From IMG/VR virus record IMGVR_UViG_3300047476_001134, positions 1-28,034 of that record: a stretch of DNA of 28,034 bases; one strand, 5' to 3'. The position numbers and the translations under genes are program-made. Positions 24,324 through 28,006 of the stretch are shown here, one piece after another. Origin of the DNA: a virus. Position 1 is the stretch's first letter. Each line of letters opens with the position of its first letter. A model generated the notes under the pieces. The model was not told the DNA's origin. It searched no databases and was given only the letters and a program-made list of their open reading frames with translations.

Positions 24324-24351
24324 AAACCCACCTTTCGGTGGGTTTTTTATT
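24324..24351. terminator. Bidirectional rho-independent terminator between convergent genes
   Basis: A perfect nine-pair stem (AAACCCACC / GGTGGGTTT) with a four-base TTTC loop is followed by TTTATT on the plus strand. On the minus strand the same stem is followed by a C and then TTTTTT. It stands between the convergent tape-measure and gp32 genes and can stop transcription from both sides; its distal edge overlaps the gp32 stop codon. Confidence 0.92.
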
Positions 24352-25234
24352 AGTCCTCTGAAGCAAGTCTTTCAAAGTATTTCATGTCATCATCTTCTTC
24401 ATCCAAATCAGGTTCTTTGGATACTGGAGGTTTTGATTTCACCTGTTCTTTGATTTGTTCAACAGTTGTCTTTGCTTGTGGTGCTTCACCAGCAAGACCA
24501 AGAACTTTATCTAAACGAGATTTCAATTGGTCATAAGATTTAAATTCTTTATCATCAGTTAGTGCTGATAGAGAATGTTCAGACTTCCAAATCTTTTCTA
24601 GTTCATCGTCATCATCTAATAGTGGTGCTGATTCTTCAAATAATGAACTATCATAGTTTTGGTAACCATCTACTTTACGTACCTTCAGTTTAAAGTTAGC
24701 ACCTTTCCACATATCAAATGGATTGATTGGTGTTTCATCTTCAAATTCAGGATTCATTGCAGCAGTAATCTTATCAAAGATTTTCTTACCAAACTTAAAC
24801 AAGAATACCTTGCCGTTGTTTTCTGGATGTTTAGGATCCGAAACAACATAAATGTTGGCCACATAATTTAGTTTACGCTTTTGTTTGCGTACAATTTCTT
24901 TGTTTGCTTCGATGCCTGAATTCCACAAAGATGAATTGTGTTCACATACTGGACATTGTTGATTCTTAGTAGTGAGACAGTTATCAATTAACCAACCACC
25001 TGGTCCTTGAAAACCATGTGAGAAGATTTTAACCCAAGGCAATGCATCGTCACCATCATTAGGTGATGCTGGTAGAAAGCGAATAGTAGCTACTGCATTA
25101 CCAGATTTATCTACTTCTGGTTTCCAATAGTTTTCTGCACGGTCTGGAAGTTCGGTGTTACCGATTGATTCTAGTGCTTTGGAGAGTTTGTCGAGATTGC
25201 CAGATTGGCGTTTGAGGTTCGCAAATGAACTCAT
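24350..25234 (-). CDS. 32: Single-stranded DNA-binding protein gp32
   Basis: gp32 coats single-stranded DNA in replication, recombination and repair. The 294-residue protein (T4: 301) shows a basic N-terminus for cooperative binding (NLKRQSGNLDKLSKAL) and the zinc site His73-x12-Cys86-x7-Cys94-x2-Cys97 (T4: His64, Cys77, Cys87, Cys90). The core ends near residue 250 and is followed by a strongly acidic tail (DLDEEDDDMKYFERLASED), as used by T4 gp32 to contact gp59 and other partners. A GAAAGGT Shine-Dalgarno precedes the ATG. Two tandem 11-base repeats lie 15-36 bases upstream. It is last in the minus-strand block, before the bidirectional terminator. Confidence 0.93.
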   Translation of the reverse strand: MSSFANLKRQSGNLDKLSKALESIGNTELPDRAENYWKPEVDKSGNAVATIRFLPASPNDGDDALPWVKIFSHGFQGPGGWLIDNCLTTKNQQCPVCEHNSSLWNSGIEANKEIVRKQKRKLNYVANIYVVSDPKHPENNGKVFLFKFGKKIFDKITAAMNPEFEDETPINPFDMWKGANFKLKVRKVDGYQNYDSSLFEESAPLLDDDDELEKIWKSEHSLSALTDDKEFKSYDQLKSRLDKVLGLAGEAPQAKTTVEQIKEQVKSKPPVSKEPDLDEEDDDMKYFERLASED

Positions 25235-25317: not shown

Positions 25318-25812
25318 TTAGGCGATTGCAAGCGCATCTTCAATTAATTTGATGGTGTTCTTTACATCACGATGTAATATACCAATGCCACCTGCATCTG
25401 TGAAGGCCTTTATAACATAATCGGTATCATCAACCAATATTCTATCATTACCAGATGCATATAAGGCCTTCTTTCTACTACCATTGGTGATATTTGCCTT
25501 ATAAGTAATACTGTGATCGTTTAACCACTGTAACTTTTGTTCTAAGACACGATCATGAAATAACTCTCCACCAGATGAAGAAAGTATTTCAATTTGAACT
25601 TTACCTTCAAGTGATTTCACATAATGTAATAATTCATCAGCACCAGGATACCAATCTAATTTTGTAAAGTTTCTACCTTCAATAAATTCTTTCCATTGTG
25701 GTGTATGTTCTTTACGTTCTCTTGTTGATGCCGCCTCAACACCAAACAACTCAGTGTATCTCTTATTGAAATTACAGAGTACACCATCCATGTCTAAGTA
25801 TAATGTTTTCAT
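25318..25812 (-). CDS. HAD-family hydrolase, probable 5'-nucleotidase
   Basis: The 164-residue protein begins KTLYLDMDGVLCNFN, the HAD motif I, with nucleophile Asp7 and general acid Asp9. Motif II is ILSSSGG at about residues 95-101, and the acidic motif near residue 128 reads RILVDDTDYVIKAF. Length and cap region fit the small 5'(3')-deoxyribonucleotidase (NT5C-like) group often found in T4-like phages, which could dephosphorylate nucleotides or adjust dNTP pools. Substrate is inferred. The start overlaps the gp59 stop as ATGA, so it is co-translated with replication genes. The 83 bases between it and gp32 contain no gene but carry the tandem repeats noted above. Confidence 0.78.
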   Translation of the reverse strand: MKTLYLDMDGVLCNFNKRYTELFGVEAASTRERKEHTPQWKEFIEGRNFTKLDWYPGADELLHYVKSLEGKVQIEILSSSGGELFHDRVLEQKLQWLNDHSITYKANITNGSRKKALYASGNDRILVDDTDYVIKAFTDAGGIGILHRDVKNTIKLIEDALAIA

Positions 25813-26411
25813 TTATAATCTTCCACCATTTGTTTAACAATATCTTTATAAACTTTTCGGTCATAATTTAAAAATGGTGCATACTTCTCACACTTCAATT
25901 TAAATGCAGGCCATATAATATCATCATCAATTTTTTCTGTCCACATGGGAAAGAAATTCAATATCTCATTTAGAATGATTAGAGTTTCTAAATTTGTGGT
26001 CTTATCCATCACCATCTTTAGTAAGATTGGATACTGACCACTCTTTACCTTTAATGTATCGTTGACTTTATAGTTTTCAAATAGGTACGTTAGATCATCA
26101 GTAAATCTATACTTTAAAGAACCGGTGACGGCCAACCACATCTTATAATTATCCTCAGCAGGTTTTAATTCTAGTGGACCTGGTCTGATATTAGGATCAA
26201 TAAGAAAATTGGCAATATAGAAGCCTTTTAGTTCTTCATAATTGTATTTTCGTGATAACCTGTAGAAGAAATATTTGTCACCACGTTGTAGAAACTTATC
26301 TTGTGACATGGTGGTCTTGCCACCATATTTGATATAATCATATTTGCCTTTAAAATGTAAACTTAACGAGTGATATAGATTAAAGGCAGCATAACCAGTA
26401 TTCTCAATCAT
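25809..26411 (-). CDS. 59: Helicase loader gp59
   Basis: T4 gp59 loads the gp41 helicase onto forks covered by gp32. The 200-residue product (T4: 217) aligns over the N-terminal region: GKYDYIKYGGK (T4 GKYDVIKYNW) and RGDKYFFYRLSRKYNYEELK (T4 RRDKYFFQKLSEKYKLKEL), then FYIANFLIDPN. The C-terminal half keeps the pattern NLETLIILNEILNFFP (T4 SFETFILLDSFLNI). It overlaps gp33 upstream and the HAD gene downstream by ATGA, which indicates one operon with gp32, its partner. Confidence 0.93.
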   Translation of the reverse strand: MIENTGYAAFNLYHSLSLHFKGKYDYIKYGGKTTMSQDKFLQRGDKYFFYRLSRKYNYEELKGFYIANFLIDPNIRPGPLELKPAEDNYKMWLAVTGSLKYRFTDDLTYLFENYKVNDTLKVKSGQYPILLKMVMDKTTNLETLIILNEILNFFPMWTEKIDDDIIWPAFKLKCEKYAPFLNYDRKVYKDIVKQMVEDYK

Positions 26412-26629
26412 ATAGGCAGTTTGGATTGTTTCTTTAACATATTGTTGTCTTGTGCTTCTTCACGTATCTTTGCTTTTAATGCAGCAGAGATTAATGTACT
26501 GGCCACTTCTATTTCAAGTCCAGTATCTTTACAATGCTCCAGTATTGCATCAATTCTGGAACATCTTAGTGAGTTAGCCAATTCTTCAATCAATTTACTA
26601 AATTCCGAAATTTCACTTTTAGTTGGCAT
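26408..26629 (-). CDS. 33: Late transcription co-activator gp33
   Basis: gp33 links RNA polymerase to the gp45 sliding clamp so that late promoters fire during replication. The 73-residue protein has the short form seen in marine T4-like phages (T4: 112): SEISEFSKLIEELAN, an IDAILEHCKDTGLEIEVAS segment, and the C-terminal hydrophobic/acidic end IREEAQDNNMLKKQSKLPI. It sits directly before gp59, as in T4-like genomes. The presence of a perfect TATAAATA promoter elsewhere in the window agrees with this function. No clear Shine-Dalgarno; it starts two bases after the SleB-like gene stop, so coupling is likely. Confidence 0.85.
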   Translation of the reverse strand: MPTKSEISEFSKLIEELANSLRCSRIDAILEHCKDTGLEIEVASTLISAALKAKIREEAQDNNMLKKQSKLPI

Positions 26630-26631
26630 AA

Positions 26632-27171
26632 TTAGGTTCTGGTGTAAAATATATGGTTACCAATTTTCATCACTACACCTCTTTTGTCCCATTTAGGATT
26701 AACATAGGTGGCATGATAGAACATTGCTTTCATTGCTGATATTCTAACATGGGCGATAGGTTCTGTCAAGGCCTTTTGTGCAATATATTGTGATTCTTGC
26801 CACAAATAACTATCTTTTGGTGTAGCATTTTTATTACAAGTCCAACTGAATTGGCAAACAGTTCTACCTTTGATTTTATCTTTTTGATATACAACACCAC
26901 AAATTGTTGGTGGATACTTTCCAGAATTGGCACGATTAATAGTAACTTGTGCAACTGCCATTTTACCTTCAAATGATTCTGATCCGGCTTCGTAGTAGAT
27001 ATTCTTTGCAAGACAGTCCATTTCTTTTGTCATTTCAATACGGACTTCTTGTGTAATTTCTTTTGCCACATAATGTGGAAAAGAGTAGGCCAACATTACT
27101 GTAAACAGTAAGAATGAGGCGATTAGTAAATTTATACTGGTAAAAATACCAGTTAGCTTTGAGTTAAGCAT
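26632..27171 (-). CDS. Membrane-anchored SleB-type cell wall hydrolase, probable endolysin
   Basis: The product has 179 residues if it starts at 27171, where AAGGAG stands six bases before the ATG; a longer frame reaches 27285 but overlaps the upstream gene and lacks such a site. Residues 8-30 form one hydrophobic segment (TSINLLIASFLLFTVMLAYS), either a signal anchor or a signal-arrest-release type helix. The hydrolase_2/SleB domain covers about 50-179: NIYYEAGSESFEGKMAVAQV carries the likely catalytic Glu61, followed by VTINRANSGKYPPTICGVVY and CQFSWTC, typical of the family. These enzymes act on peptidoglycan glycan strands (lytic transglycosylase-like). It is probably the lysis enzyme. 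It lies in front of gp33-gp59-gp32. Confidence 0.83.
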   Translation of the reverse strand: MLNSKLTGIFTSINLLIASFLLFTVMLAYSFPHYVAKEITQEVRIEMTKEMDCLAKNIYYEAGSESFEGKMAVAQVTINRANSGKYPPTICGVVYQKDKIKGRTVCQFSWTCNKNATPKDSYLWQESQYIAQKALTEPIAHVRISAMKAMFYHATYVNPKWDKRGVVMKIGNHIFYTRT

Positions 27172-27226
27172 GTGCTTCTCCTTGTTGATTGGGAGCGGCC
27201 AAAATAGACCACTCTTTCTCACGCAA

Positions 27227-27502
27227 TTACGAGTTTTGCTTTTTCGTTTTAATTTCAGGCGTGGTTGTTTGAGATACGAAACCATTAAGCATCGAGGCCT
27301 TGGTTATAATATCGTTCTCTGATGGATAACTTGGGAATGCTGGATGATCTGGTATTGCTTGTCCGTTTAACTTAGCGGACTCTACCTTTACATTCCATTC
27401 ATTGATTAGGCGATCTTTGTTGGAAACATATTCTTCCATCAAAAGGTCTTTCGCCATCTTTAGTAGTTCGAGGCGAATCTCGAACGGTGTCATGTTGCTC
27501 AT
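27227..27502 (-). CDS. Conserved small protein upstream of the gp33-gp59-gp32 cluster
   Basis: The 91-residue product has a helical N-terminal half (MTPFEIRLELLKMAKDLLME, EEYVSNKDRLINEWNVKVE) and a proline-rich segment (IPDHPAFPSYPSENDIITKA) before a short basic tail. I have seen this pattern as a conserved hypothetical in marine T4-like phages, but no function is known to me. A perfect AGGAG Shine-Dalgarno stands six bases before the first ATG (27502); a second in-frame ATG follows three codons later. The 55 bases between its stop and the SleB-like gene contain the latter's ribosome-binding site. Confidence 0.75.
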   Translation of the reverse strand: MSNMTPFEIRLELLKMAKDLLMEEYVSNKDRLINEWNVKVESAKLNGQAIPDHPAFPSYPSENDIITKASMLNGFVSQTTTPEIKTKKQNS

Positions 27503-27568
27503 ATACTTCTCCTATTTGTGTGTGAGTGTGTTTAGTTTTTAATGAGAACTATAACTCATGTGTATATT

Positions 27569-27576
27569 TATTTATG
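27569..27576 (-). promoter_or_regulatory. Candidate late promoter (CATAAATA)
   Basis: The minus strand reads CATAAATA, one base from the T4 late consensus TATAAATA and consistent with the NATAAATA form in related marine phages. It lies between the tmRNA and the 91-residue gene, about 67 bases before its start. The region is A+T-rich, so chance is possible. Confidence 0.4.
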
Positions 27577-27637
27577 CTTCTAAATTCTTGCAAGGTGATT
27601 GGGTGATAAGGACACCTTGCGAAACCTCATCTAGTGC

Positions 27638-27670
27638 TTAAGCAGCTAGAGCGTAACTTTCATCGTTTGC
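27638..27670 (-). other. tmRNA proteolysis-tag reading frame (ANDESYALAA)
   Basis: The resume codon GCA at 27668-27670 begins a ten-codon frame, GCA AAC GAT GAA AGT then TAC GCT CTA GCT GCT, ending in TAA (27638-27640). The ending YALAA is the degron recognised by ClpXP-type proteases. It differs from the E. coli encoded tag ANDENYALAA by one residue (Ser for Asn at position 5). Confidence 0.93.
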
Positions 27671-27761
27671 AGTTACTAGTTTTGCTTGATTTACGGTCAT
27701 CGCCTACCGTGTTGTCCATATCCTTACTCTTTACCCTGTCGAGACCAGATCAGCCCCATCA

Positions 27762-27824
27762 GAAACACATAATCCCCGCTAGAGCCCTAAGAGGTTTCTT
27801 TCATCTAGGACAACTATGTGCTTC
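27762..27824 (-). other. Intervening segment of the permuted tmRNA flanked by inverted repeats
   Basis: The segment between the acceptor 3' end and coding 5' end is bordered by GAAGCACATA (minus strand, 27824-27815) and TATGTGTTTC (27771-27762), which pair over ten positions with one G-U. The stem abuts the CCA end and lies four bases (TGAT) from G1, so it extends the acceptor stem in the precursor and probably presents the loop for RNase processing. Confidence 0.7.
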
Positions 27825-27892
27825 TGGTGGAGCTGGGCGGAATCGAACCGCCGTCCAGAATACTTTTCATTCAACTTCATACAACAATATTC

Positions 27893-28006
27893 TTAAAACC
27901 AATCATCTTCATCATCACGACTATTACTGGTATCTTTCATAACAAGAACTACTGCTATAACTATTACTCCAATAATTAGTGTGCATAACATTAAATCTGC
28001 TATCAT
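27893..28006 (-). CDS. Small single-span membrane protein
   Basis: A 37-codon ORF with an excellent GGAG Shine-Dalgarno five bases before ATG. The peptide has a hydrophobic helix from about residue 5 to 23 (LMLCTLIIGVIVIAVVLVM) and a short hydrophilic C-terminus (KDTSNSRDDEDDWF), rich in Asp. The charge pattern suggests an N-out/C-in or reverse single-span membrane peptide. It could be a holin-like, spanin-like or host-interaction peptide, but no family is recognised. Its stop lies just before the tmRNA acceptor piece, so the two may share a transcript. Confidence 0.6.
   Translation of the reverse strand: MIADLMLCTLIIGVIVIAVVLVMKDTSNSRDDEDDWF

Follow-up and report, generated by a model that had tools for sequence, protein, structure and literature searches.

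Two-piece tmRNAs encoded by phages have been described before. Buchholz et al. 2022 (PMC9004378) found one in phage Melnitz and arrived at a count of 53 two-piece structures in phage tmRNAs, 50 being marine or aquatic, so that a phage-borne permuted gene is already known in kind; that paper also discussed functional guesses similar to those made in the initial annotation of the DNA studied here, and a database of 2025 (PMC11915505) holds 79 bacteriophage tmRNA sequences. We examined a 28-kb metagenomic fragment from IMG/VR (28,034 nt, the whole of which we call the window) that carries such a gene near the end of the contig. The window gene extends the published phage gene to beta-type relatives. 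Of greater importance, we think, is the spacer between its two pieces, a probably discardable sequence that surpasses the mature RNA in conservation, is found again beside a tRNA and has no counterpart in Rfam.

The permuted gene and the phage that carries it

A complete gene for a circularly permuted (two-piece) tmRNA occupies the minus strand from 27890 to 27590; its parts and neighbours are listed in Table 1. ARAGORN reported a permuted tmRNA on this strand (full gene 27547-27917, tag ANDESYALAA), and full-length matches were obtained with RF04321 (tmRNA_permuted; 148.8 bits, E 8e-30, gathering score 47) and with RF01850 (beta_tmRNA, the best of its clan; 136.3 bits, E 8e-42, gathering score 84), E values that do not allow a chance match. 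The initial annotation had placed the acceptor half before the coding half, with a seven-pair acceptor stem containing G3-U and a tag reading frame ending in YALAA. Searches with Infernal models and with ARAGORN, as it proposed, gave matches, ARAGORN and the sequence confirmed the boundaries at 27825 and 27757, and the tag with its stop was found at 27670-27638. The acceptor strands GGGGCUG and CAGCUCC form seven pairs, and the G3-U70 alanine identity pair and an encoded CCA end are both present. The 3' end of the coding piece is uncertain (27580-27590), and the minimum free energy fold shows the 8-bp stem of the pseudoknot that follows the tag.

Table 1. Predicted features of the tmRNA gene and of the genes around it in the window
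Feature	Position	Strand	Basis or remark
gp32-like single-strand DNA-binding protein, synteny anchor	24350..25234	-	
gp59-like helicase loader	25809..26411	-	
gp33-like late-transcription coactivator (PF16805)	26408..26629	-	Melnitz and Mosig have the same neighbour
Cell-wall hydrolase (PF07486)	26632..27285	-	Start codon uncertain
H-type pseudoknot after the tag, GAUGAGG/CCUUAUC interleaved with GCAAGGUG/CACCUUGC	27590..27631	-	Read from the sequence
Coding piece: acceptor 5' strand GGGGCUG, D-loop, helix P2 strand, pseudoknot region, tag frame, 3' pseudoknot	27590..27757	-	ARAGORN, RF04321, RF01850
Tag reading frame: GCA resume codon, ANDESYALAA, UAA	27638..27670	-	
Spacer between the pieces, 67-nt hairpin, expected to be excised from the mature RNA	27758..27824	-	ARAGORN boundaries, fold
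Spacer element type A, AGUUGUCCUAGAUGAAAGAAACCUCUUAGGGCUCUAGCGGGGAUU	27771..27815	-	Also in 40 further IMG/VR phage tmRNA spacers and one tRNA-Thr trailer
Acceptor piece (GUUGU...CCA): helix P2 strand, T arm GGCGG-UUCGAUU-CCGCC, acceptor 3' strand CAGCUCC, A, encoded CCA	27825..27886	-	ARAGORN, RF04321, covarying stems
37-aa ORF (MIADLMLCTLIIGVIVIAVVLVMKDTSNSRDDEDDWF), predicted membrane-like, ends directly before the tmRNA	27893..28006	-	Read from the sequence

From its gene content the contig is assigned to a T4-like (Kyanoviridae-like) phage, its T4-like set comprising gp32, gp33, gp59, a deoxynucleotidase, a cell-wall hydrolase and baseplate/tail genes. Among isolated phages, those nearest in gp6 are Melnitz (host Methylophilales; 40%) and HTVC008M (38%), and those nearest in gp32 are cyanophages (57%). 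The tmRNA gene stands among gp32, gp33, gp59, baseplate and tail genes with synteny in 25 of 27 relatives, which bears out the earlier view that it is encoded by the phage. Among bacterial tmRNAs the closest are permuted ones from Alcaligenaceae-type Burkholderiales (about 81% over some 120 nt); the permuted form occurs in a minority of the Burkholderiales sampled (an RF04321 match above cut-off in 17 of 300 genomes). Three Burkholderiales genomes (G200, G180 and G274) have a second, weak match besides a strong permuted one; the weak match may be the standard gene, with the permuted copy on a mobile element.

Conservation of the locus, its stems and its tag

A permuted tmRNA lies 2.3-5.2 kb before gp32 in 25 of the 27 gp32-centred IMG/VR loci that could be judged, i.e. 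those with at least 5.3 kb upstream of gp32, and because these loci are the closest gp32 relatives the fraction describes this clade only. The gene is upstream of gp33-gp59-gp32, as is ssrA in Melnitz and Mosig; the recommended search of related phages recovered the locus in these 25 relatives and, beside gp33, in both isolates. The statement that tmRNA genes are uncommon in phages thus does not apply within this clade, of which the tmRNA is, to judge from these loci, near to a fixed gene. With the window tmRNA as query, blastn of the phage collection returned Mosig as its sole match.

Some records point to exchange of the gene or of its parts. In L003 (1159-1409; IMGVR_UViG_3300047476_001065), a close relative, another type, with the T-loop GGCAGUA, has taken the place of both tRNA-like halves, while the spacer and tag half are nearly identical to those of the window; the replaced halves still pair, like a coordinated chimera, and ARAGORN missed this tmRNA. 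In L098 (1122-1374; IMGVR_UViG_3300032297_000372) the tmRNA is 98% identical to that of the window over the gene alone and the flanks differ (phoH, rubrerythrin-like), from which it would follow that tmRNA genes or parts of them move between phages. A 236-kb phage record (G022, IMGVR_UViG_3300032562_000004) has two permuted tmRNAs, at 143658-143932 and 172862-173101, one with the tag ANDESYALAA and the other with a tag of 29 aa.

Pairing was counted on an ungapped alignment of the acceptor and T arm of 26 distinct phage sequences, since in a MAFFT alignment of the whole tRNA-like part the acceptor strand had slipped out of register wherever the D-loop was shorter. In the acceptor and T stems 312 of 312 base-pair cells were paired, with double-sided changes in 60 cells and at eight of the 12 pairs, and covariation was 0.548, compared with 0.128 ± 0.020 in shuffles and 0.044-0.127 when slid. 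G3-U was present in all 26 sequences. Complete pairing and the invariant G3-U follow in part from the script that collected the genes, which kept a gene only if it had G3-U, most of the T stem and six or more acceptor pairs, raised to seven in the set analysed; ARAGORN, free of these criteria, yields the same stems, and the variety of compensated pairs is independent of the filter. These data indicate that the acceptor/T-stem pairing is under selection, and the covariation ties the two tmRNA pieces together. The tag frame is also preserved, with a variable middle and an end that is mostly LAA or MAA, and no relative had the broken acceptor pairs or tag frame that would have spoken against the gene. 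Read by eye, D-loop and T-loop change together: sequences with GG in the D-loop have UUC in the T-loop, and those with AG have GC at these positions, Mosig being an ambiguous case.

Bacterial genomes have the tag ANDESYALAA too, in 37 stretches, so that tagging with a phage-specific peptide, as once suggested, finds no support for the window copy, and ordinary ribosome rescue and degradation are the best guess for a tag that equals that of several bacteria. Elsewhere, L157, L271 and L294 share one family of 29-aa tags (ANASTGEVTVSGKNVKFSARTVKAESFAV and variants), which end in AV rather than ALAA and differ synonymously between phages; this is a possible phage-specific tag, and it had no match in the phage collection.

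We consider it very probable that the window encodes a working two-piece tmRNA of betaproteobacterial sequence type, which is matured by host enzymes, uses host SmpB and rescues ribosomes. Its folding, cutting, charging and tagging are proposed because known two-piece tmRNAs (PMC11915505, PMC9004378) behave in this way, and by such analogy we infer its processing, charging, use of SmpB and benefit. One precursor would be transcribed with the surrounding genes, its acceptor stem closing over the spacer hairpin; host tRNA-maturation enzymes would cleave after the CCA and before the GGGG, freeing the spacer, and the two pieces would remain paired and receive alanine through the G3-U70 identity pair. 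We found no smpB in the window or in 21 other phage records searched, the single match being in a phage record whose adjacent tmRNA is of the standard form, and as the window has none the host protein is presumably used. Together, host SmpB and the phage tmRNA would release stalled ribosomes and append A-ANDESYALAA, readable by host proteases, most likely to the benefit of translation, which would be kept going while messages break down during infection. A tmRNA whose type does not suit the host might work badly, and it might even be a competitor of the host tmRNA.

In a rival reading the RNA is a decoy or inhibitor, which would compete for SmpB or ribosomes with the tmRNA of the host and so block ribosome rescue there; a tag-less form from phage DS6A inhibits the endogenous tmRNA in E. 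coli, according to the 2025 database paper (PMC11915505). A decoy, however, would need no in-frame degron tag, and here none of the tag frame, resume region, G3-U70, T arm or pseudoknot shows damage and all are conserved, which makes this explanation very unlikely. We give scarcely any credence to a recently captured, functionless host fragment, for instance one left by integration at ssrA: tmRNA genes are indeed common integration sites (discussed in PMC9004378), but the gene has a positional ortholog in 25 of the 27 relatives and in two isolated phages and has undergone extensive compensatory change, which together argue for long retention under selection.

The spacer and the elements that it carries

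Spacers in the phage genes are 40-175 nt long (median 67), whereas those of the bacterial permuted genes that we read are plain hairpins of 24-43 nt, one odd case of 5 nt being excluded. The window spacer, which scores 94.4 bits with its own covariance model, forms a hairpin with a 45-nt element in the loop, termed type A (consensus AGUUGUCCUAGAUGAAAGAAACCUCUkAGGGCUCUAGyGGGGAUU). A 17-nt word common to the window and Mosig spacers was found in 70 contigs, mostly within phage tmRNAs, after the CCA and before an acceptor strand that pairs, and a second pattern, for the full type A, in 41, i.e. in 40 tmRNA spacers and in L281; chance matches to the searched words inside coding genes (L322, L254, L265 and others) were left uncounted. 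In L281 type A is directly behind the CCA of a phage tRNA-Thr, and the tmRNA spacer of that contig holds a 24-codon ORF. When 30 phage records were searched with a covariance model (R1), seven had one copy each, two contigs of 143 and 162 kb among them.

Across phages, the spacer, although expected to be excised, is conserved more strongly than the mature tRNA-like halves, as far as sequences can tell. Mean identity was 93.5% over the 24 nt beyond the 17-nt word, against 75.3% in the acceptor piece and 69.2% at the start of the coding piece, in 26 distinct genes (eight acceptor and 12 T-arm sequences) that were collected by the word, a procedure that favours similar spacers, although the compared bases lie outside the word. 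Pairing of the outer spacer stem is kept through double changes at five pairs. Type A is best described as a putative separate structured RNA module carried in the loop that would be excised. It gave only chance-level matches (E up to 10) among 4227 Rfam families and no blastn match in the isolated phages of the phage collection, its exact core had zero matches in 399 Burkholderiales genomes, and the conserved spacer element, which the initial annotation had overlooked, appears to be undescribed so far. A glutamine riboswitch was rejected, the window having no RF01739 or RF01704 match, as was a known small ribozyme, of which no motif fits (by eye only).

Other phage spacers hold other elements. 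A short form, B (UGGUCCUAGAUGAAGGAAAUU), was found in 13 contigs, 11 times in a tmRNA spacer and twice in a hairpin outside tmRNA (immediately behind gp32 in L291, and in L280 with identical sequence), and Mosig has it too. Element C, in which CGAACCGAGUUAUCGGUAGCAAA is joined by a variable paired hairpin, matched 96 contigs; we read 101 copies, of which 74 lie in spacers with an encoded CCA, 12 in spacers of genes with ACCT for ACCA, nine in the tmRNA 5' leader, four before tRNA-Gly and two elsewhere, and blastn of the phage collection gave only weak, unconvincing matches. In L332 (4650-5260), L341 and L382 the leader copy of C is just past a promoter-like TTGACA...TACAAT, and the tmRNA spacer of L332 can encode a hydrophobic peptide of 22 aa. 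Small ORFs, some hydrophobic, were likewise seen inside the tmRNA spacers of L281 (1-560), L018, L085, L048 and L321 (Melnitz).

It is quite possible, if short of an even chance, that element A is a small piece of selfish or neutral DNA, passed from phage to phage in an excised loop tolerant of insertions and without a role for the phage. Spread by recombination is a serious rival because gene parts have been exchanged in L003 and L098, and it is fully compatible with a patchy, near-identical distribution: among 35 classifiable gp32-anchored spacers, two have A (the window and L003), ten C, two D and 21 others, some of these being variants of C, and A is near-identical across unrelated tRNA-like halves, reaches at most one copy per searched record and occurs behind a tRNA-Thr too. 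Less easily explained in this way are its outer stem, which varies with compensation, its start, which is always immediately after the CCA, and, on our reading, element C, in which the core is constant while the variable hairpin and outer stem change pairwise. The placement of A between the cut sites, directly after the CCA and also at a tRNA-Thr 3' end, would suit a processing signal that aids separation of the tmRNA pieces or maturation of the CCA end; this is rather unlikely, as the loops of most relatives are quite different although the gene is of the same kind, those of bacteria are plain hairpins and short, and C is also found in the 5' leader and beside other RNAs. More tentatively than the selfish reading, we suggest that phage two-piece tmRNA genes are release cassettes, with a spacer slot for independent small RNAs (A, B and C) or mini-ORFs that tRNA-processing enzymes would free along with the mature tmRNA and that would act alone in the infected cell, perhaps by binding proteins or by serving as a sponge or aptamer. 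If released spacers do act, phages would deliver small RNAs via split tRNA-like genes, and the cassette reading is testable now because Mosig, which bears element B, was isolated on a cultured host, HTCC1062.

Relation to known spacer RNAs and two-piece tmRNAs

Small RNAs that derive from tRNA spacers, such as 3'ETS-leuZ, offer only an analogy for the window spacer, as a structured spacer excised from a tRNA-like precursor that could act alone. The window gene matches RF04321 and RF01850 over their full length and differs from bacterial genes in having a 67-nt spacer with a conserved element in place of a plain 24-43-nt hairpin. The ssrA of Melnitz (MZ577097), a T4-like phage of Methylophilales, is likewise a two-piece tmRNA upstream of gp33-gp59-gp32; it is, however, of alphaproteobacterial type (RF01849, 106.7 bits) with the tag ANDNYVPVDYALAA, whereas the window gene is of beta type, its long spacer holds an ORF and not element A, and downstream it has a glutamine riboswitch, for which the window gave no match to either family. 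Mosig EXVC030M (MT647606), a Pelagibacter phage, has an SsrA of alpha type with the tag GEDNFALAA and a 44-nt spacer, but shares with the window a permuted tmRNA beside gp33 and a spacer hairpin that carries a related element, B.
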